From an uncultured Lachnospiraceae bacterium (GTDB lineage: Bacteria; Bacillota; Clostridia; Lachnospirales; Lachnospiraceae), in assembly GCA_946566685.1 (NCBI GenBank), contig CAMNXA010000011.1, positions 1 through 64,000 on the forward strand: a stretch of 64,000 nucleotides of DNA, in the 5' to 3' direction. The position numbers were made by a program, and so were the translations under genes. The notes beneath the pieces are model-generated. The model saw only the letters and a list, made by a program, of their open reading frames with translations. It was not told where the DNA came from and did not search any database. Shown piece by piece: positions 3 to 60,049 of the stretch. Position 1 is the first letter of the stretch. Each line of letters starts with the position of its first letter.

Positions 3-1847
3 ACGGTAAAGCCTGACGGCGTGACGGTCGAGGTTGACGAGGACGGCACAATCCGGGTTCCCGGTGCGGCATCCGGAAATTCCGGTATCAAGCTGGCGAA
101 TCCGTCAAACGTGACTATCAGTAATTTTGACCAGTCCGCACGGATCACATGGACTGACCCTGAAAACGTTGTTTACGAGGGCGCAAGACTGGCAACCTGG
201 CAGGGCACGGTCGTTGTCCGGAAAGAGGGCGGCACTCCGCAAAACTGGATGGACGGGGAGCTTGTGGCGAGAGTGACCGAAAAGAACAGGTACCAGACGG
301 AGGCGCTGCTGGATGAAAACCTGGAAAACGGAAAGGAATACTGTTACGGTATCTTCCCTTATTCCGATCAGTTGGTCTATAACTATGACTTTACACAGTC
401 TTTCGTTCCCGAAGAGATAACCCTGTCCGCCCCTGGAATCACCAGTGCCAGCGGAAAAGACGGGCGGGTGATTCTGGATATCGTGAACAATACCGAAGAT
501 GCGCTTGTGAAGATAGTGTATAAGGCAGGTTCCGCACCTACCAGCGGCACGGACGGAATGATTGTGGAGGGCCTGACCAGCGGAAAGGTTGAGATAACCG
601 GCCTCACCAATAAGACGGAGTATTTCTTTGTTGCGTATGCTTACAGCAATATGAAAACCTCTTCCGCCTCGGCTCCTGTAGCCGCCACTCCCAGGCAGTA
701 TACGCTCCTGGGATTCCGGATGAAGAAAGCAGAAAGTGATCCCGCAACAAAGATTGAGTACACAGAAGAGGCGGTGGGGCTCACACCGGCAAAGGTAAAT
801 CTTTCCACCGGCGAATTTGATTACGGCTCATTCAAAAATTTCTGGTTCGTCCGGGATAACGTGCCTGTCATGCTCAACAATGACGGAACGGAGGCATACG
901 AGCTCAACCCCAACGATTACACAAAGAAAGCTGACGGATCGCCGTCTGATGTGGCGAACAGTTCCTTTGCCGGAAACGCCATGAGCCGCATCCCCAAAGT
1001 GTATATGAAGATGTGGGAGGCGAACGGTTACGAATACTGCAATATCTGTGATATTAAGCTGGACGATTCCTACCACGCATACGCACATACCAGGGCGGAC
1101 GGCTCCGAAATGGACTATCTGTATCTGTCTATGTTCGAGGGCTCCCTGGTAAGTAATAAGGTGCGCTCCATTAAGGGGCTGAATCCCATGGTAAGCAAGA
1201 CGGGAACCGAAGAGCTGACTGCGGCAAAGGCGAACGGTTCCCGTTGGAGTACCCGGTCATGGTCACAGCGTAACCTTATCAACATGCTTTTGATCCTCAT
1301 GGGAAAGACCACCGACACGCAAAAGGCTTTCGGATATGGATATTATACTGGCGGTTCCTCTTCCGCTCCGAATTATCTTACCTCCGGCGGCGCATCCAAC
1401 AAAGGCCAGTTCTACGGCACCAACAAGACCAGGGATTACGTCAAAGTATTCCATATCGAAAACTGGTGGGGGAATGTCTGGGAGCGTATCGAGGGTTGCG
1501 TGACGAATGGCAGCACCCGTATCCTGGTAAAATCGGTGCCCCCGTACAATACGGCCGGAACCGGCTATGTGGATACAGGAGTCACGCCCGGAGGAACCTC
1601 TGGCGGATATATCAGCGCCTGCAAGATGATAGAACACGGGCTTATCCCCATGACCGCATCCGGGAGCGAGACAACACAGTACCCGGACGGCCTGTGGTTT
1701 GCGGCGAACTGTTATGCGCTGGTCGGCGGCGCCTGCAACGATGGTCTGCCTGTCGGTGCGCTCGCCTTGAGTGTGGACGCTGCGCTGTCTTATGCGTACT
1801 GGGCCTTCGGCTCGGCCCTTTCTTGCGAACAGCCTTTAGCGGCGTAG
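3..1847 (+). CDS. DGR variable protein, phage tail/receptor type (5' truncated by window)
   Basis: The reading frame is open to the left edge, so the N-terminus lies outside the window. Numbering here counts the GTG at 21 as residue 1, though that is unlikely to be the real start. Residues about 25-225 look like two fibronectin type III-like beta domains. The C-terminal half resembles the C-type-lectin/formylglycine-generating-enzyme fold used by DGR target proteins, with a WWGNVWE motif near residue 490. The last 40 residues contain the variable repeat (residues about 565-599), rich in small and aromatic residues at varied positions (A, D, P, S, Y, F). In known DGR phages such proteins are receptor-binding tips, and tail genes, holin and endolysin downstream support a tail location. 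Fold assignment is from motif reading only; the DGR-target role is strongly supported by the adjacent template. Confidence 0.9.
   Translation, partial: TVKPDGVTVEVDEDGTIRVPGAASGNSGIKLANPSNVTISNFDQSARITWTDPENVVYEGARLATWQGTVVVRKEGGTPQNWMDGELVARVTEKNRYQTEALLDENLENGKEYCYGIFPYSDQLVYNYDFTQSFVPEEITLSAPGITSASGKDGRVILDIVNNTEDALVKIVYKAGSAPTSGTDGMIVEGLTSGKVEITGLTNKTEYFFVAYAYSNMKTSSASAPVAATPRQYTLLGFRMKKAESDPATKIEYTEEAVGLTPAKVNLSTGEFDYGSFKNFWFVRDNVPVMLNNDGTEAYELNPNDYTKKADGSPSDVANSSFAGNAMSRIPKVYMKMWEANGYEYCNICDIKLDDSYHAYAHTRADGSEMDYLYLSMFEGSLVSNKVRSIKGLNPMVSKTGTEELTAAKANGSRWSTRSWSQRNLINMLLILMGKTTDTQKAFGYGYYTGGSSSAPNYLTSGGASNKGQFYGTNKTRDYVKVFHIENWWGNVWERIEGCVTNGSTRILVKSVPPYNTAGTGYVDTGVTPGGTSGGYISACKMIEHGLIPMTASGSETTQYPDGLWFAANCYALVGGACNDGLPVGALALSVDAALSYAYWAFGSALSCEQPLAA
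1715..1817 (+). repeat. DGR variable repeat (VR)
   Basis: This 103-bp repeat is colinear with the template at 1981-2083 (offset 266, no gaps). There are 13 mismatches, each at a position where the template has A: VR positions 1731, 1732, 1740, 1750, 1771, 1776, 1779, 1780, 1791, 1797, 1803, 1804 and 1806. No G, C or T of the template is changed. The last 11 bases (1807-1817) are identical in both copies and GC-rich, as expected for the initiation-of-mutagenic-homing end. Ten amino acids of the host protein are altered, nine of them Asn or His codons in the template. Confidence 0.97.
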
Positions 1848-1879
1848 CCGCATAGGGGGACCGGGGGATACTCCCCCGG
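1839..1879 (+). other. Inverted repeats just 3' of the VR (DGR cruciform candidate)
   Basis: Two hairpins follow the VR. The first is GCGGC-gta-GCCGC (1839-1851), spanning the stop codon of the target gene. The second is a perfect 8-bp stem, CCGGGGGA (1861-1868) and TCCCCCGG (1872-1879), with a 3-nt loop. No T-run follows the second, so it is a poor terminator. In the Bordetella phage DGR a short-loop hairpin just downstream of the VR promotes target recognition, and this element has the right position and shape. The role is inferred by analogy. Confidence 0.65.
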
Positions 1880-1912
1880 AGAGCTTTCAAAATGAGAATA
1901 TGTAAATTTTTA

Positions 1913-1946
1913 TCAGGAATCGTGAACGGCGGTTCCTGAATTTTTA
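1913..1946 (+). terminator. Probable terminator between target gene and template repeat
   Basis: A 7-bp stem, TCAGGAA (1913-1919) with TTCCTGA (1933-1939), is followed by a T-rich tract. It lies between the target gene and the TR, so the template RNA may need its own promoter or depend on read-through. Confidence 0.5.
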
Positions 1947-1980
1947 TAGGGGAAATGGTGTACGCCCTGGGCCTGTTCCG

Positions 1981-2083
1981 TGCGCTGGTCGGCGGCAACT
2001 GCAACAATGGTCTGCATGTCGGTGCGCTCGCCTTGAATGTGAACAATGCGCTGTCTAATGCGAACTGGAACATCGGCTCGGCC
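1981..2083 (+). repeat. DGR template repeat (TR)
   Basis: This is the 103-bp invariant donor of the DGR, lying outside any protein-coding frame I would accept. It holds 20 adenines, 13 of which differ in the VR. Nine sites are AAC or AAT codons when read in the VR frame, the usual DGR arrangement because mutating the first two bases samples many residues without creating stop codons. It sits 156 bp upstream of the reverse transcriptase. Confidence 0.97.
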
Positions 2084-2239
2084 TAATTCTTATTGAAATG
2101 GAGTATCAACTAAGGACACCATTTTCCTACACCGCAGGCGGTTGAAATACCGCTAACCAGTGGAAATTACGCCGATAAAAGGCATGGTCTAGTAAGCGCA
2201 CGCCCACCGACCATGAGGCAATAAGAAAGAAGAGGGAAT
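2084..2239 (+). promoter_or_regulatory. Structured TR-to-RT spacer
   Basis: This non-coding spacer carries a small hairpin, GCGGT with ACCGC (about 2132-2147), and a longer-range perfect 7-bp stem, CATGGTC (2183-2189) with GACCATG (2209-2215), just ahead of the RT ribosome binding site. In characterised DGRs the RNA between TR and RT is folded and needed for template-primed cDNA synthesis. Position and structure fit that role here; it is not proven. Confidence 0.45.
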
Positions 2240-3658
2240 ATGAAGAGTTTCCGAATCAACCAGAATGAAATGCTGTCACATGACAGCATAGAGAAATCGT
2301 TCCTGGTACCCTCCCGTGGAAAAAGAAGCAGGCCGGACGTGAAAGAGACGCTGGATAATCTGGAAAATGAAATACAGTACGTCTTTGAAATGCTCATGAA
2401 CGGTCAATTTGAGCCTACCGACCATAAGGCGGTAAAAATCAATGAAAGGAATTATCAGAAAGTCCGTACAATCGTAAAGCCTGATTATAAGTATGAGCAG
2501 GTGGTTCATCATGTGGTAGTACAGGCAATCCGTCCTGGGATTGAAAGCGGGATGTATGAATACGTCCTCGGCTCCATTCCGGGAAGAGGCCAGCACATGG
2601 GAGCTAAGATAATTTCAAAATGGATTCAGGAGGACCCGGAGAATACGAAGTACGTCCTGAAAATGGATATACGTCATTTCTTCGAGAGCGTGGATCATGA
2701 AATCCTGAAAGCCTGGATAACCAAAAAATTCCGGGATGAATTTGTCCGGGAATTGCTTTTCCTGATAATAGACGCCATTGAAACGGGATTGCCGCTGGGC
2801 TTTTATACCAGCCAGTGGTTCGCTAATTTTCTTTTACAGCCTTTAGACCATTACATCAAAGAAACGCTCCATGTCAAATATGGCACACGGTACATGGACG
2901 ATATTGTATGTTTCGGCCGAAACAAGAAAGAAATTCACAAAGTCCGGATAGCAATCAATGAGTATCTGAACAGTGAGCTCAATCTAACCATGAAAGATAA
3001 TTGGCAAGTATTCCGGTTTGAGTACGAAGTGGAAGAATACGCCATAGAGTGCCAGACCATGAGGGAGCTTAAAGCTCTGGGGAACGAGCTGGGGAAAATA
3101 AGAATTAGGCACAAGCTGAAAACTCACAAGAAGCGCTGGAAGATTTTTATTAAGGTTGCGAGCGTGAGGAATAAGCAAGATAAATTGGAGCGCCTGCTGG
3201 TGATGTACCATGGCCATAGCGAAAAAGTGACCATGACATACGGCAGGCCGCTTGACTATATGGGTTTTGAATTTCACAGAAACCGCACAATCATACGGAA
3301 AGGCATCATGATACGCCTAACCAGAAAAGCGGGGCAGGTATCCAGACAGGAGAAAATCAATCCGAAGGACGCCGCCTCGCTCTTATCTTCTATGGGTTGG
3401 GTGAAGCATACCGACACCTACGGGATGTATGAGGAACGGATCAAGCCGATTGTCAGCATTAAAAAGCTGAAAAAGGTTGTCAGCAAAAACCAGAAGCGGA
3501 TAAACCGGAAAGAAAAGGAGGCCAGAAAGAAAAATGAAAATCGTATGGGAAACAGTGACGGGCTCACAGGAGAGCCGCCCGGAGGTCATAGACAAGACTT
3601 CCAGCGGGAAGTATGTGTACCTGCGCCGGAACTTCCAGCGGATAACCAGGACGAATGA
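2240..3658 (+). CDS. DGR reverse transcriptase
   Basis: This RNA-directed DNA polymerase copies the TR with errors at adenines, and the cDNA then replaces the VR. Visible motifs: KMDIRHFFES (residues 141-150, catalytic Asp), LPLGFYTSQ (184-192, the DGR-type motif 4 with Gly and Ser-Gln), YMDD (218-221), NWQVFRF (254-260) and DYMGFEF (339-345). The start ATG follows AAGAAGAGGGAAT. There are about 70 extra residues (261-333, Lys/Arg-rich) between NWQVFRF and DYMGFEF, where I expect a short loop. The tail after about residue 432 is Pro/Gly/Asn-rich and overlaps the next gene by 125 bp. No group II intron maturase or HNH domain is present, and no Avd-like accessory gene is visible in the window. 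Confidence 0.95.
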   Translation: MKSFRINQNEMLSHDSIEKSFLVPSRGKRSRPDVKETLDNLENEIQYVFEMLMNGQFEPTDHKAVKINERNYQKVRTIVKPDYKYEQVVHHVVVQAIRPGIESGMYEYVLGSIPGRGQHMGAKIISKWIQEDPENTKYVLKMDIRHFFESVDHEILKAWITKKFRDEFVRELLFLIIDAIETGLPLGFYTSQWFANFLLQPLDHYIKETLHVKYGTRYMDDIVCFGRNKKEIHKVRIAINEYLNSELNLTMKDNWQVFRFEYEVEEYAIECQTMRELKALGNELGKIRIRHKLKTHKKRWKIFIKVASVRNKQDKLERLLVMYHGHSEKVTMTYGRPLDYMGFEFHRNRTIIRKGIMIRLTRKAGQVSRQEKINPKDAASLLSSMGWVKHTDTYGMYEERIKPIVSIKKLKKVVSKNQKRINRKEKEARKKNENRMGNSDGLTGEPPGGHRQDFQREVCVPAPELPADNQDE

Positions 3659-3860
3659 AAATTCCGGAACGGTTGTCCTCTGGCAGTATGAAGAGGCAAA
3701 GGTCACACAGGAGGAATATGCACAGTATGACACGGTTGTCATGGAGATTGTGCAGGCGGAGCTTGACAGCATGGCGTCAGAACAGGCAGAGCATAACGCC
3801 GCCATGCTTGCCAACATTGAGTATATCGCTATGATGGCGGACATTGATTTGGAGGGATAA
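3534..3860 (+). CDS. Small phage tail-associated protein (unknown)
   Basis: A 108-residue acidic protein whose start lies inside the 3' end of the RT gene in another frame. AAGGAGG is at 3515-3521. The N-terminal half looks like a small beta domain (KIVWETVTGS, KYVYLRR) and the C-terminal half is helical and rich in Ala and Glu. It sits directly upstream of xkdX, a position often held by an uncharacterised protein of this size in Firmicutes prophages. I do not recognise a functional domain. Confidence 0.75.
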   Translation: MKIVWETVTGSQESRPEVIDKTSSGKYVYLRRNFQRITRTNENSGTVVLWQYEEAKVTQEEYAQYDTVVMEIVQAELDSMASEQAEHNAAMLANIEYIAMMADIDLEG

Positions 3861-3863
3861 CCT

Positions 3864-4019
3864 ATGGAACACAGCAAGAATTTTGAAAAGGTAAAGAAGT
3901 TTTTCGACAAGGGCCTTTGGAGTAAGCAGCGGGTGTATAACGCTGTCAGCAATCCTATATCCGGCCCCTGGATCACCGAGGCGGAGTACCAGGAAATCAC
4001 GGGTGAAGCCTATGAGTAA
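3864..4019 (+). CDS. xkdX: XkdX family phage protein
   Basis: A 51-residue protein with the family hallmarks: an N-terminal F-x-x-V-K-x-F-F-x-x-G-L-W segment, then ITEAEYQEITGE at the C-terminus. XkdX is encoded between tail and lysis genes in PBSX-like and many clostridial prophages; its function is unknown. The start follows GGAGGGATAACCT. The stop overlaps the next gene's ATG region, so the two are translationally coupled. Confidence 0.85.
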   Translation: MEHSKNFEKVKKFFDKGLWSKQRVYNAVSNPISGPWITEAEYQEITGEAYE

Positions 4020-4200
4020 AAGCGGTTATGACTGCGGCTCCACGTTGGAGCTCCAGAATAACATCATAGAGGGCCAGCGGCACATCATAGGCGAGCTGGT
4101 GAAGCTCTACTGCACGGAGCCGGTGTTCGATCTGCCGGAGGAACTGCAGAAGAACATCAGGGAGACAAACGAGATGTACCGTGAGCTGACCACACCATGA
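4012..4200 (+). CDS. Hypothetical phage protein
   Basis: A 62-residue protein starting at an ATG that overlaps the end of xkdX; a GTG at 4003 in the same frame is an alternative. It is mostly helical (ELQNNIIEGQRHIIGELVKLY, then a Glu-rich helix). Its position between xkdX and the holin suggests a lysis or tail-completion accessory. No recognised domain. Confidence 0.65.
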   Translation: MSKSGYDCGSTLELQNNIIEGQRHIIGELVKLYCTEPVFDLPEELQKNIRETNEMYRELTTP

Positions 4201-6697: not shown

Positions 6698-7012
6698 GGG
6701 TGCTATAGCATTTGTTATGACATTTGCTATAGCATTTTGGCTGGCAGATGATGTATAACTAGTTAGGTAACGTTATCTATAATGTTACTGATAACATATC
6801 TATTCTATTTTTTCTTTTATCAGAAATCCCGAACTGCTCCAAACACATATTCGTCAAAAAAATTTTTCTTCCTATTTATAAGTAATCGCTAAAAATGTTA
6901 TAAATAACATTACAGATAACGTTATAAAAAGCGTTACAATAAACAAAACAAAATAGTATTTATCTATATATATACCCTCGCACAAATAACGATAGCGGTA
7001 ACGTTATACTGT
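6698..7012. repeat. Array of short palindromic sites upstream of the accessory operon
   Basis: This non-coding AT-rich stretch holds two identical palindromes TGCTATAGCA (6701-6710 and 6725-6734, 24 bp apart). They are followed by a family of ATAACGTTAT-like sites: GTAACGTTAT at 6767, AATGTTACTGATAACAT from 6781, ATGTTATAAATAACATTAC from about 6895, GATAACGTTAT about 6916, GCGTTAC about 6931, and GGTAACGTTATAC about 6998. The regular palindromes look like a repressor or partition-protein array, or origin iterons. The element encodes a ParB-like protein (17601-18983) and an HTH protein (12481-12804) that could bind here. Confidence 0.55.
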
Positions 7013-8624: not shown

Positions 8625-8680
8625 GCCGGTGCCTCTAATGCGGGAATCAGGTCACAACCCCTGGGGAAGTCGCAGAGTGG

Positions 8681-8934
8681 AGGCAGCTCTTTTATAAGCA
8701 TTGTCTATTTGGTTTTGGTCAACAAGTTTTCAGTCCGGTTTTTAATGAGAAAACGGGGCGGCGGTTCGAGCAGACAACGCCTGAAAATGCTCATACTGGT
8801 CAGCAAGTTTTCAGGCTTTAGTGCGAAACCTGATAAGGGAGGTTCCCCCTGACATTCGAGAGAACAGGCGGAAAGTATGAAAGCCGCTCAATAAATTCAT
8901 ACCCAAATAGACAATTTTTATAAAAGGGCTGTCT
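8681..8934 (+). ncRNA. Candidate structured RNA closed by a 32-bp terminal helix
   Basis: Bases 8681-8712 pair with 8903-8934 over 32 positions with one mismatch (8699/8916) and a few G-U pairs; the inner 13 bp (ATTGTCTATTTGG with CCAAATAGACAAT) are perfect. Inside are further hairpins: CCG(g)TTTT with AAAACGG (8735-8756); GCCTGAAAA-TGCT with AGCA-ag-TTTTCAGGC (8779-8816); CAGG(c)TTT with AAACCTG (8812-8832), exclusive of the previous one; and GCGG with CCGC (8868-8887). An 18-nt sequence, TGGTCAACAAGTTTTCAG, recurs with one change about 85 nt later. There is no open frame of note. The strand follows the flanking genes. A small mobile or invertible DNA element is the alternative. Confidence 0.6.
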
Positions 8935-22151: not shown

Positions 22152-22214
22152 GGAACGGAGGATTTAACAAAAGTACAATTTTGGTCACTTTTCGTTAATA
22201 TCCGGGATTCAAAA

Positions 22215-56105: not shown

Positions 56106-59100
56106 TTATTCGAGTATGTTTAAAAGGCTTTTAATTCTGTTGTTTGAGTGCGTAATCATTTTGCTGCCGGCCTGAAGCAGTAAGTTCAGATTGGAATATC
56201 TGATCAGTTCTGCGGACATATCTGTGTCACGGATGCGGGATTCGCCTGCCTGAACCTGTTCCGTCACATTATCATTGTTATTGATCGTGTGCTCCAGACG
56301 ATTCTGCATAGCGCCATAGGTACTTCTCCTGTCGCTCAGTGCCTTGATCGCGTCTTTAATATGCTCAACTGCTTTTTCCGCATACTTGGCCTGGCTGATC
56401 GTAATGGAATTGATGGACAGCGAAGCAGAGTCTACGCGCAGCCTTGGCAATTCTATGGTACTCCTCTGTTCTGCGCCGACTTGCAGGATCAGGGGATCGC
56501 GGGAATCTCGCCCTTCCTCTTCAAAGAAGATTGTGCTCCTTGCGCTTCCGCCAATATCGGTGATGGTATTCGCGCCGATCGTTTTGTGCCAGATCTTGAC
56601 GGCACCGTCTTCCAGGGTTGCCCGCAAGGGGGCCTGGTTGCCGTTGTCATCTCCTTCATTAAATTTCCTGTTCAGTTCAGCGATAAATTCATCTGCGTTA
56701 TAGTATTTATTTTCCTCAAATGTATATTGGTAAGGGATGGAATTGGCGGAAAGAGTAAGCACATTCTTTCCGGGTTCAAAAGTGATTCCCCCACTGATAT
56801 CCTTGGTGCCAACAATGTAAGTTGCCTTTGGCAGAGTGGCTGTTTTGTAGAAGACAAAGCAGGATGCATTTCCACGGACGCCATCGATGATGTATTCTCC
56901 TTCTCCCGGTTCCTTGCCGGTTTTGGGACTTACCGTAATCTGCAAGGCAAGGGGATCGATATTGCCGGCAACATCGGTCTCATATCCGCCGACCGAAAAT
57001 GAAAGATTGAAATCACCGTCAACGCCAAAGATATTATGGTCACTGGAATCGCCGTCTTTGCCAAACTGCTCTTTAACGGCCGCGTTCAGAACCCGGACAA
57101 GTTCCTGTCCATTCTGATACACGCCTTCGGGAATCGTAACATTTATGGTTTCGGCGAAGCTGTCATAAAAATCCTCTGTACTATCCTTATCTTTGTTATA
57201 AGTAAGGTCAAAAGTGAGCGTATCGTTAAAACCTGCAACGATTTCAATGGGGCCTGTTGTCATATCCCTGCGGCCTATGATAAGGGTGTTATCATAATCA
57301 CAGGTACCCTGCGCCCTGTGGGAGTAAGGTGCCCCGGTTACGCCTTTACAGATGACCTCATCATAAAAGGTGCCGCTGAGATTCAAAGTTTGGCCCGTTG
57401 CCGTCAGGCAGAGGCTGCCATATTCGAGGCTGGCCTCAACAATACCATTAAAAGGAGAATTCGCAAGTGCGTTTTGCAATGCAGTAAGGACATCTGTTCT
57501 GCTATTACAGGTTCCATTAATTGTAATGGTATGGGTAATGCCTCCTGCTGTTATGGTCAATTCGTTATTGCTGCTGAATTGATCCAGTGTTATGTTATAA
57601 GGAATAGAATAGCGGGATGTTATCTTAGGGGCCCCGGCATATTGGACGTAAGGTCCTGATGTACTCTGGACTGTTTCAAAAATACCATTATCCCAGGCAG
57701 AGGTATGGGAAAGGGAAATATCCCACCAGCCGTCCGGTATGCTTTCATCATCTTTAGGCGGTTCAAACGTAAATTTGAGCGTGTTACCGGCATAGGATGC
57801 CTTTACAAAGTCTGCGTATCCGCCGCTCAGTTTGGAATTTATCTGTTTTGCCAGATCATCCATGGTGTTATAGGTGCCTGGATCCAGATAAAGATTAATC
57901 GTGCCGAAAGTGGTTCCGGAGAGCGAATCATCGGTGGAACGTCTTAAAGTTATAGCTATATGATTATTGCTTCCGTCAATGGTAACAGGTACCTTACAGG
58001 GGCTCGCATTAATGGACGCGTTTTGAATCTTAATATCCGAGGTATCTCCCTGTCCTTGCAGTTTGTGTCCCCGGACACTGCCGGAGAAATAGCCGTTCGG
58101 TCTGGAATAGGTACTTGTAAAAAGCTTGCGGTAAGTTTCATTTGCATCCGCAATCGTTATACTGCTCACATCGTCAGATGCCGAGTTTATGACAAGCCTG
58201 CCGCCAGAAGCCGCAAACTCAATTCTGCCATTTAAGTCGGGCGTATTTGCCACAAAGTCATTCAGCTTACTGACCAGACTGTTCAGGTCTGCATGATCTC
58301 CGCCGATGATATCTTTTCCTACGGTATATGTTATGCCATTGACTGCAAAAGATAAAGTCGCATCCGGATCAAGCTCAATCTTGCCGTTTAAATAGGCAGA
58401 CCCCGTGAGGGACGCGGGCTGCCCGGTCTTACTGGGATAACCGCTTACACTGAGGAATAAAGTTTCATATGTTTTATTATAAATTTTAGCATCGGCAGGA
58501 TCTACAGCCGGGTCAACAGTAAAGTTAAGCTTGCTGTGCGTTCCCTTCTTCTTACTCGCAAATTCCATGCGGGAACCCGTAAAGATGGCTTCCACTTTGT
58601 CGTCAAGGCCTGCATTTTTAAGTGCATCATTTACCACATCAGTAAGTTCACTGACCGTATATTCGCCGGCAGGCAGGGTAATTGTCTTGACATCCGTATC
58701 CTCATCCAGTTTAAAATACAGTATATTATTTTGATTGGCAGTATTTCCGTATATTTTAATTTTAAAAGTCTGATCGTGGCCGGTAAACTGGGCGCTTTCT
58801 TTGTCGCAGGATCCATAAACCGCATTGTCATAAAATACGGAAGTATATTTGGGATAGCCGGGTTCATATTTAAACATGTTACCTTTCAGACCTGTGATAT
58901 TGACGGTATCACCACCCGTAATCTGAATATAGTAATCGCCATATGGTTTGGCAACGATGCCATCGGCGCCATCCACATTTTGCAGTTTCTTATTAATTTC
59001 GTTGATCATTTGCTCCCGGGTATATTTTTGCTCCCCATTTACCGGAGCGTCAATGGTTATGTGTATTTCCTTAATACCCTCAGCACTTTCGGCAAAAAAG

Positions 59101-59960
59101 ATAAGTTCATCATTTTCTCCATAGTGAATGAGCAGTTCTCCGGGGTCACCATTTGGCTTGGGTTTAAACGCAGAGGTTCCCAACAGACTGGCAGGCGAGC
59201 CGCCGGACTGAAAATCATAGATCAGATATGAAAGGGAGCCATCGACCATTGCGATATTAGTGGGTTTACCCTCGGCGCTCTCAAAATTCAGGTTACAATA
59301 GCCGTCACTTGTGTATTCAAAGACGAATCCCGGATTCGGGGGATCCATTTTGCTCAGGGCGGTGTCTATCTCATCGATCAGTTCCTGTGTAGTATATGTA
59401 CCGGCAGGAACGGTAATGGTGTAGTCTTTCGGGTCATACCCGTCAGGAAGATGGATATTCAGCTCATTTTCTGAGGAGGAAATCGTATGAAGCTGATTAT
59501 CTTTCCATTGTCTGTTTCCGCAGATTTGATAATAAGATTCCTCGTGTTTGTCAAATACCGGCATGGTATTAAACGTGGTAGTATCATTGATTCGGTCGAT
59601 TTCCGTGCGAAGCTGGTCAAATTCGGCATTTAATGCAGCACGGTCTTCCGCAGTACAAAGTCCGTTCAGCGCTTTCAAAGATAATTCATTCATCCGTTGC
59701 AGCATGGTGTGGATCTCATCCATGGCGCCGTCAGCAATCTGTACAAAAGCAACGCCGTCTTTGGTATTGTTGATTCCCTGCATAAGTCCCCTGAGTTGCT
59801 TTCGCATAGTCTCAGAGATGGCAAGGCCGGCCGGATTGTCAGACGCACGATTTATTCTGTAGCCGGAAGAGACTTTGCTCGTAGATTTTGCGTGTTCAGC
59901 AATATTGGCGTTCACAATCCTGTTTGTATTCATTGCCTGTAAGTTATGGGTAATAATCAT
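56106..59960 (-). CDS. Giant flagellin with hypervariable repetitive insert
   Basis: A 1,284-residue flagellin, versus about 270-500 for ordinary ones. The N-terminal D0/D1 (about 1-145: THNLQAMNTNRIVNANIAEHAKSTSKVSSGYRINRASDNPAGLAISE) and C-terminal D1/D0 (about 1175-1284: MQNRLEHTINNNDNVTEQ, SNLNLLLQAG) are intact. Between them lie about 1,000 residues with about eight repeated modules of the form strand, then ITVPAG-YT, then ELIDEINxxL helix, like flagellin hook-IN insertions. The protein has ten cysteines, unusual for flagellin. ATG at 59960 follows GGGAGAAAAAC. No other flagellar gene lies in the window. Confidence 0.92.
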   Translation of the reverse strand: MIITHNLQAMNTNRIVNANIAEHAKSTSKVSSGYRINRASDNPAGLAISETMRKQLRGLMQGINNTKDGVAFVQIADGAMDEIHTMLQRMNELSLKALNGLCTAEDRAALNAEFDQLRTEIDRINDTTTFNTMPVFDKHEESYYQICGNRQWKDNQLHTISSSENELNIHLPDGYDPKDYTITVPAGTYTTQELIDEIDTALSKMDPPNPGFVFEYTSDGYCNLNFESAEGKPTNIAMVDGSLSYLIYDFQSGGSPASLLGTSAFKPKPNGDPGELLIHYGENDELIFFAESAEGIKEIHITIDAPVNGEQKYTREQMINEINKKLQNVDGADGIVAKPYGDYYIQITGGDTVNITGLKGNMFKYEPGYPKYTSVFYDNAVYGSCDKESAQFTGHDQTFKIKIYGNTANQNNILYFKLDEDTDVKTITLPAGEYTVSELTDVVNDALKNAGLDDKVEAIFTGSRMEFASKKKGTHSKLNFTVDPAVDPADAKIYNKTYETLFLSVSGYPSKTGQPASLTGSAYLNGKIELDPDATLSFAVNGITYTVGKDIIGGDHADLNSLVSKLNDFVANTPDLNGRIEFAASGGRLVINSASDDVSSITIADANETYRKLFTSTYSRPNGYFSGSVRGHKLQGQGDTSDIKIQNASINASPCKVPVTIDGSNNHIAITLRRSTDDSLSGTTFGTINLYLDPGTYNTMDDLAKQINSKLSGGYADFVKASYAGNTLKFTFEPPKDDESIPDGWWDISLSHTSAWDNGIFETVQSTSGPYVQYAGAPKITSRYSIPYNITLDQFSSNNELTITAGGITHTITINGTCNSRTDVLTALQNALANSPFNGIVEASLEYGSLCLTATGQTLNLSGTFYDEVICKGVTGAPYSHRAQGTCDYDNTLIIGRRDMTTGPIEIVAGFNDTLTFDLTYNKDKDSTEDFYDSFAETINVTIPEGVYQNGQELVRVLNAAVKEQFGKDGDSSDHNIFGVDGDFNLSFSVGGYETDVAGNIDPLALQITVSPKTGKEPGEGEYIIDGVRGNASCFVFYKTATLPKATYIVGTKDISGGITFEPGKNVLTLSANSIPYQYTFEENKYYNADEFIAELNRKFNEGDDNGNQAPLRATLEDGAVKIWHKTIGANTITDIGGSARSTIFFEEEGRDSRDPLILQVGAEQRSTIELPRLRVDSASLSINSITISQAKYAEKAVEHIKDAIKALSDRRSTYGAMQNRLEHTINNNDNVTEQVQAGESRIRDTDMSAELIRYSNLNLLLQAGSKMITHSNNRIKSLLNILE

Positions 59961-60049
59961 GTTTTTCTCCCTGTCTTTATTATGCAAAAAGTTTATTGGT
60001 ACTGAAGCTGCGTAGTACTATTGTTTTTGTGGATATGATATCATACATT

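Follow-up and report, generated by a model that had tools for sequence, protein, structure and literature searches.

We analyzed a 64,000-nt stretch of an uncultured Lachnospiraceae bacterium (contig CAMNXA010000011.1, positions 1–64,000; hereafter the window) and conclude that the cassette at its left end is almost certainly a recently active phage diversity-generating retroelement (DGR). On the + strand, to which all cassette coordinates refer, a target gene containing the variable repeat (VR) is followed by two hairpins, the template repeat (TR), a structured spacer RNA and a reverse transcriptase (RT) gene. The element is demonstrated by its TR/VR pattern, by a constant TR accompanied by varying VRs in relatives and by a conserved RNA, with the RT and target folds supplied by models. 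VR (1715–1817) and TR (1981–2083) align over 103 nt with no gaps, and the differences comprise 13 of 20 template adenines (six A to G, four A to C and three A to T) and none of the 83 remaining bases (P = 7e-12 that 13 randomly placed differences all strike adenine). Likeness in this register ends abruptly on either side, and a search of the genome of origin (3.9 Mb in 115 contigs, 94.8% complete) revealed no third TR/VR copy at E values up to 0.01. Ten VR residues are altered, nine encoded in the template by AAC, AAT or CAT and the tenth by ATC; eleven TR codons are variable, and no codon of the TR can be converted to a stop codon by adenine changes. A previous interpretation drawn from the letters of the window (the sequence-only reading) had described this gapless alignment, the 13 adenine-restricted changes and the nine of ten residues, and each proved exact; its identification of a DGR is likewise backed by the adenine pattern and by relatives sharing the TR with different VRs. 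Across 12 TR/VR pairs compared in a fixed 103-nt register, which are of common ancestry and hence not independent, 144 of 250 adenines are changed versus 4 of 986 other bases. The error spectrum by AAC/AAT context gave no clear fit to the BPP-1 bRT profile as far as it is set out in excerpts of PMC12875486, and because natural VRs are under selection we draw no conclusion from it.

Comparison with close relatives places the diversification in time. Three near-identical prophages occur among genome contigs: L038 (JAETRI010000002, genome G471), L039 (BLLU01000280) and L040 (CAJSZV010000006, genome G473). Each carries a TR identical to that of the window at 103/103 bases and a VR that differs from the window's and from the other two, an outcome that the sequence-only reading had predicted for related genomes. 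A 6,864-column alignment of the four contains 115 variable columns, of which 19 belong to the VR and 96 to the rest of the alignment; 18 of the 19 VR columns fall on template adenines, and 58 of the remaining 96 lie at 6746 or beyond and stem nearly all from L039. Substitutions inside and outside the VR number 11 and 16 between the window and L038, 18 and 81 for window–L039, 15 and 15 for window–L040, 11 and 85 for L038–L039, 11 and 84 for L039–L040, and 14 and 1 for L038–L040. As L038 and L040 differ at a single position outside the VR in 6.86 kb, homing there is later than nearly all other divergence of this stretch. Within 21 kb picked for low divergence (one-kb bins 115–135), the VR-bearing bin holds 14 of the 23 differences between L038 and L040; outside the picked stretch, 223 differences fall in bins 103–114 and 8 in bin 136, which is partial. 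The sequence-only reading had argued for recent or ongoing activity from the absence of drift within one TR/VR pair, which is weak evidence because homing rewrites the VR each time; the recency it proposed is borne out instead by the L038–L040 comparison. A masked 103-nt pattern (N at TR adenines, up to 3 mismatches) occurs in 1 of 397 family genomes, the genome of origin alone, a shorter exact masked pattern occurs in 0 viral contigs, and megablast against 50,697 phage records gave no match for the 6-kb module. Within the genus of origin, searching with the RT (E up to 1e-20) yields matches in 9 of 77 genomes, and only the match in the genome of origin is closer than 80%.

As expected of a DGR, the VR lies inside the coding sequence of a C-type-lectin-like target protein. 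The target gene (1–1847, open frame 3–1847) has lost its 5′ part at the contig edge and matches the tail protein family PHROG 5302 (E 4.6e-88); the full-length protein is 673 aa in the near-identical L040 and in protein P0121, and comparison with P0121 indicates that the window begins at residue 60. Two fibronectin-III-like domains (84–701; residues 28–233 of the 614 in the window) stand in front of the C-type-lectin-like variable domain (852–1832; residues 284–610). The DGR variable proteins TaqVP and Mtd have a C-type-lectin-like fold. The name of the fold follows usage for such proteins (PMC6328139). Ahead of the VR, P0121 and P0143 show 0 differences from the window backbone over 571 and 332 residues, and they contribute two further VRs; in the six target variants every residue can be obtained from its TR codon by adenine changes alone. 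In 90% clusters for which the definition of a member is not stated, the target protein P0121 has 456 member sequences and the RT P0001 has 83, a disparity that would fit hypervariation of the VR.

The spacer between TR and RT gene contains a full-length match to the Rfam RNA RT-4 (RF03025; 2128–2226, 68.3 bits, short of the gathering score of 73.5, E 3e-10), and relatives L015, L014 and L019 exceed that gathering score with 74.5, 77.4 and 77.6 bits. Among 50 related records, 28 have an RT-4 match (E up to 0.01); these include five over the gathering score and all 13 that bear an insert in the RT. The match ends 4–19 nt ahead of the estimated RT start in 27 of the 28, and in the last (L144) it overlaps by 16 nt an RT start that is merely extrapolated; RT-18 and RT-17 occupy the same spacer site in L018, L028 and L006. 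With the RT-4 model structure placed on the window (19 pairs, 20 sequences), 13 of 19 pairs show double changes and 96.1% of cells are paired versus 31–39% in slid controls, with 82 double-change cells versus 25.0 in shuffles; the aligned sequences are mostly RT-4 family matches, which leans the measure toward the family structure. An RNAalifold consensus of 17 spacers that include distant ones retains two short helices. We take RT-4, RT-17 and RT-18 RNAs to be DGR spacer RNAs; our literature search found no paper assigning RT-4 to DGRs, and the original RT-n RNA paper, which lay outside that search, may say so. Two 26-nt stretches with 81% likeness form a direct repeat, one at the 3′ arm of the spacer RNA (2202–2227) and the other inside the RT gene (2413–2438), possibly by chance.

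The RT gene (2240–3658, 472 aa) is an open frame with YMDD (residue 218) and LGFYTSQ (residue 186), the latter fitting the [ILV]GxxxSQ motif of DGR-type RTs, and the protein is modelled in the Bordetella DGR RT fold. Both motif and fold mark it as DGR-type. RT motifs 6 and 7 are separated by an inserted domain (3023–3241; residues 262–334) that is predicted to adopt a beta-alpha-beta-beta-alpha-beta arrangement with pLDDT of 92–95 per ten residues and that carries 17 K or R versus 9 D or E. An insert of 70–75 residues is present in 28 of 115 related loci, whose contigs are partly repeated. The insert matches no Pfam family (best FHIPEP, E 0.034), no relative in the PDB by profile search (best MutL, E 0.42) and no stand-alone protein among 144 candidates; RTs took up the results of a structure search, and a search of titles and abstract starts returned no paper describing it.

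Past the VR, the cassette contains elements that could direct homing. The last TR adenine faces 1806, leaving an adenine-free 3′ end common to VR and TR (1807–1817) that is a candidate initiation of mutagenic homing (IMH) position. Two hairpins follow in tandem, the first (1839–1851) with a 5-bp stem overlapping the target stop codon and the second (1861–1879) with an 8-bp GC-rich stem that makes it the candidate target-recognition hairpin. By eye, 5-bp first stems are visible in L041, L012, L014, L015 and L018 and not in L021. All 14 loci inspected, some of them near-identical, have a 6–10-bp hairpin 22–69 nt past the VR, and the same script recovers the hairpin of Bordetella phage BPP-1. Stems of at least 7 bp occur in 54 of 1000 random window stretches; six of the 14 loci have 6-bp stems, which are commoner by chance and fall outside this background count.

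Downstream, genes for an XkdX-type protein, a holin and an endolysin place the cassette within a module of tail and lysis genes. The prophage probably terminates near 22.2 kb of the window, since likeness to the G471 copy is lost at 22,208 and PfkB- and MgtC-domain genes come next; in G471, a 580-aa open reading frame (ORF) adjoining the left limit of the shared stretch resembles a large serine recombinase by eye. The prophages are mosaic, with segments 95.6 to 99.8% identical. The rpoB genes of the L038, L039 and L040 genomes are 73.0–80.2% identical, recA identity is 73.2–78.9% with the genome of origin included, and G471 and G473 are unlike each other past the left end of the prophage. The genome of origin gave no rpoB match, and recA from the genome of L041 could not be aligned in a search of one strand. 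From the rpoB and recA identities and the unlike flanks, near-identical phages appear to be found in clearly different bacterial genomes, each with its own VR. Between L038 and L040, whose rpoB genes are 73% identical, the 21 kb hold 9 differences beyond the VR bin and neighbouring bins reach up to 5 percent, reflecting either mosaicism with recent cross-host spread or misbinning. Elsewhere in the window we noted a weak twister-P1 ribozyme match inside the prophage (8632–8683, + strand; 32.9 bits versus a gathering score of 67.2) and a 1293-aa flagellin (56106–59987, − strand) whose very long middle is flanked by Pfam domains at the N and C termini.

Several observations weigh against a recently active DGR, beginning with the accessory protein Avd. 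PF22296 (bAvd) has no match in the genome of origin up to E 10, in a search that recovers BPP-1 Avd at E 7.3e-36 and that a very divergent accessory could escape, and the ORFs at 3534–3860 and 4003–4200 match no accessory family above cut-off. No bAvd-like protein was recognized beside TR and RT as in BPP-1, and the sequence-only reading's description of the element as complete calls for caution on this account. Avd is called essential for BPP-1 cDNA synthesis in passages of PMC6642488; one survey, as excerpted from PMC8934634, places an Avd-like neighbour beside 62% of DGR RTs in complete genomes, so its absence is not rare. Among the 50 related records, which may be fragments, PF22296 is found once, weakly and below cut-off (L026, E 8e-6), leaving 13 of 13 insert-bearing and 36 of 37 insert-lacking records with no bAvd match. 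These counts bear on whether the RT insert is an accessory factor fused into the enzyme and standing in for Avd, an idea favored by the recurrence of the insert in related loci, its confident model, its K/R-rich composition and the missing bAvd in the genome of origin and all insert-bearing records. Since insert-lacking relatives, often fragments, equally have no Avd, its absence is not tied to the insert, and the predicted insert fold differs from the helical bundle of Avd; we consider the fusion unlikely. We tentatively entertain a broader possibility, that a Bacillota phage DGR lineage retrohomes without any Avd and that Avd's positioning of template and RT falls there to the spacer RNA of RT-4 type, joined in one branch by the novel domain inserted between RT motifs 6 and 7.

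Other points on the same side concern the RNA, the hairpin, the VRs and the hosts. Free energy of the TR plus spacer is no better than in shuffles (z −0.65), so the RNA claim is carried by covariation, and of the five covariation measures one, the count of pair types, fails to exceed shuffles (26 versus 24.0; 122/500). The second hairpin departs from the BPP-1 type, with a 3-nt loop, no GRNA and a position 43 nt from the VR. Adenine-biased pairs are missing from 18 of 117 loci, several of them contig fragments, and the non-adenine VR changes among the 12 pairs comprise one in L039, two in L014 and one in L019. The sequence-only reading had named non-adenine VR differences in relatives as evidence that would count against it, and L039 touches on this with a synonymous G opposite TR T at position 1790, to be set against the overall excess at adenines. 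Of nine other TRs, seven have G at 1790 (L041, L021, L012, L016, L042, L015 and L017; near-identical in some cases), T occurs in L014 and A in L019, so the L039 change could be left over from an older VR or could be a plain mutation. L038 is titled a metagenome-assembled genome and L040 is possibly one, so misbinning could mislead on hosts, and tetranucleotide profiles of the G471 and G473 contigs left binning undecided. Lysogeny could fix a single VR per clone, and together with the missing Avd-type accessory this is what could be expected if a once-active DGR were now silent, its past VR diversification frozen in each lineage; the 14 VR differences versus 1 elsewhere between L038 and L040, the intact RT frame with YMDD and LGFYTSQ and the identical TR across four genomes make such silencing improbable. 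That a duplicated segment diverged by ordinary mutation and selection or by phage recombination with no retrohoming, as the L039 change and the mosaic prophages might hint, is scarcely credible when all 13 changes in the window and all but four across the 12 pairs strike adenine, beside an RT modelled in the Bordetella DGR RT fold.

For an active DGR, we propose that the RT would reverse-transcribe an RNA that includes the TR and the spacer fold of RT-4 type, with misincorporation opposite template adenines, and that the resulting cDNA would replace the VR, at the 3′ terminus of the gene for the tail protein. Guidance into the VR may come from the post-VR hairpin and from the adenine-free 3′ end. 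In BPP-1, according to passages of PMC3240598, the hairpin is required for efficient homing, and the phage DGRs shown there have a 7–10-bp GC-rich stem with a 4-nt GRNA loop 4–34 bp from the VR. The outcome would be that about ten residues of the C-type-lectin-like domain are rewritten on a constant scaffold, and we infer that this domain binds a receptor and that its variants affect host choice.

The element departs from known systems in several respects. The BPP-1 DGR (NC_005357; mtd, avd, TR, brt) has avd, whereas none was matched here; its spacer matches RF03022 (Phage_DGR) rather than RT-4; and, in contrast to BPP-1, the RT here has an inserted domain and the hairpin has another loop and distance. 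The Bacteroides Hankyphage DGR, as described in excerpts of PMC6199706, similarly combines one prophage, several host species, substitution-free TRs and adenine-specific VR changes in asparagine codons, so the pattern here is not new in kind; Hankyphage is a separate phage of Bacteroides hosts, whereas the hosts here are, by record title, Lachnospiraceae (L038, L039) and Clostridiaceae (L040). The nearest named phages by RT are the Butyrivibrio phages Closwp03, Arawn and Idris (PQ069210, MN882550, MN882554; 38.6% identity over 85% of the query). Arawn shares an RT-4 match (49.1 bits, short of the gathering score) just ahead of the RT, with no annotated gene between the preceding gene and the RT, and differs in an RT of 381 aa. 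TaqVP, the Thermus aquaticus DGR variable protein (5vf4), is 15% identical to the target, which differs in being a phage tail protein with two fibronectin-III-like domains in front.

Nearly all recent change in this tail module sits at template adenines, across copies from different genomes. Tropism switching is the likely use of the cassette; Roux et al. (PMC8144416) write that host attachment proteins appear to be what phage DGRs diversify. The tail-protein variants, held on one constant backbone, allow direct comparison of binding. The lineage makes it possible to ask how mutagenic homing could proceed in the absence of Avd, proposes a function for RT-4, RT-17 and RT-18 and offers an RT domain to test; if the Avd-less arrangement is true, these Rfam families would be the spacer RNAs of Avd-less DGRs.

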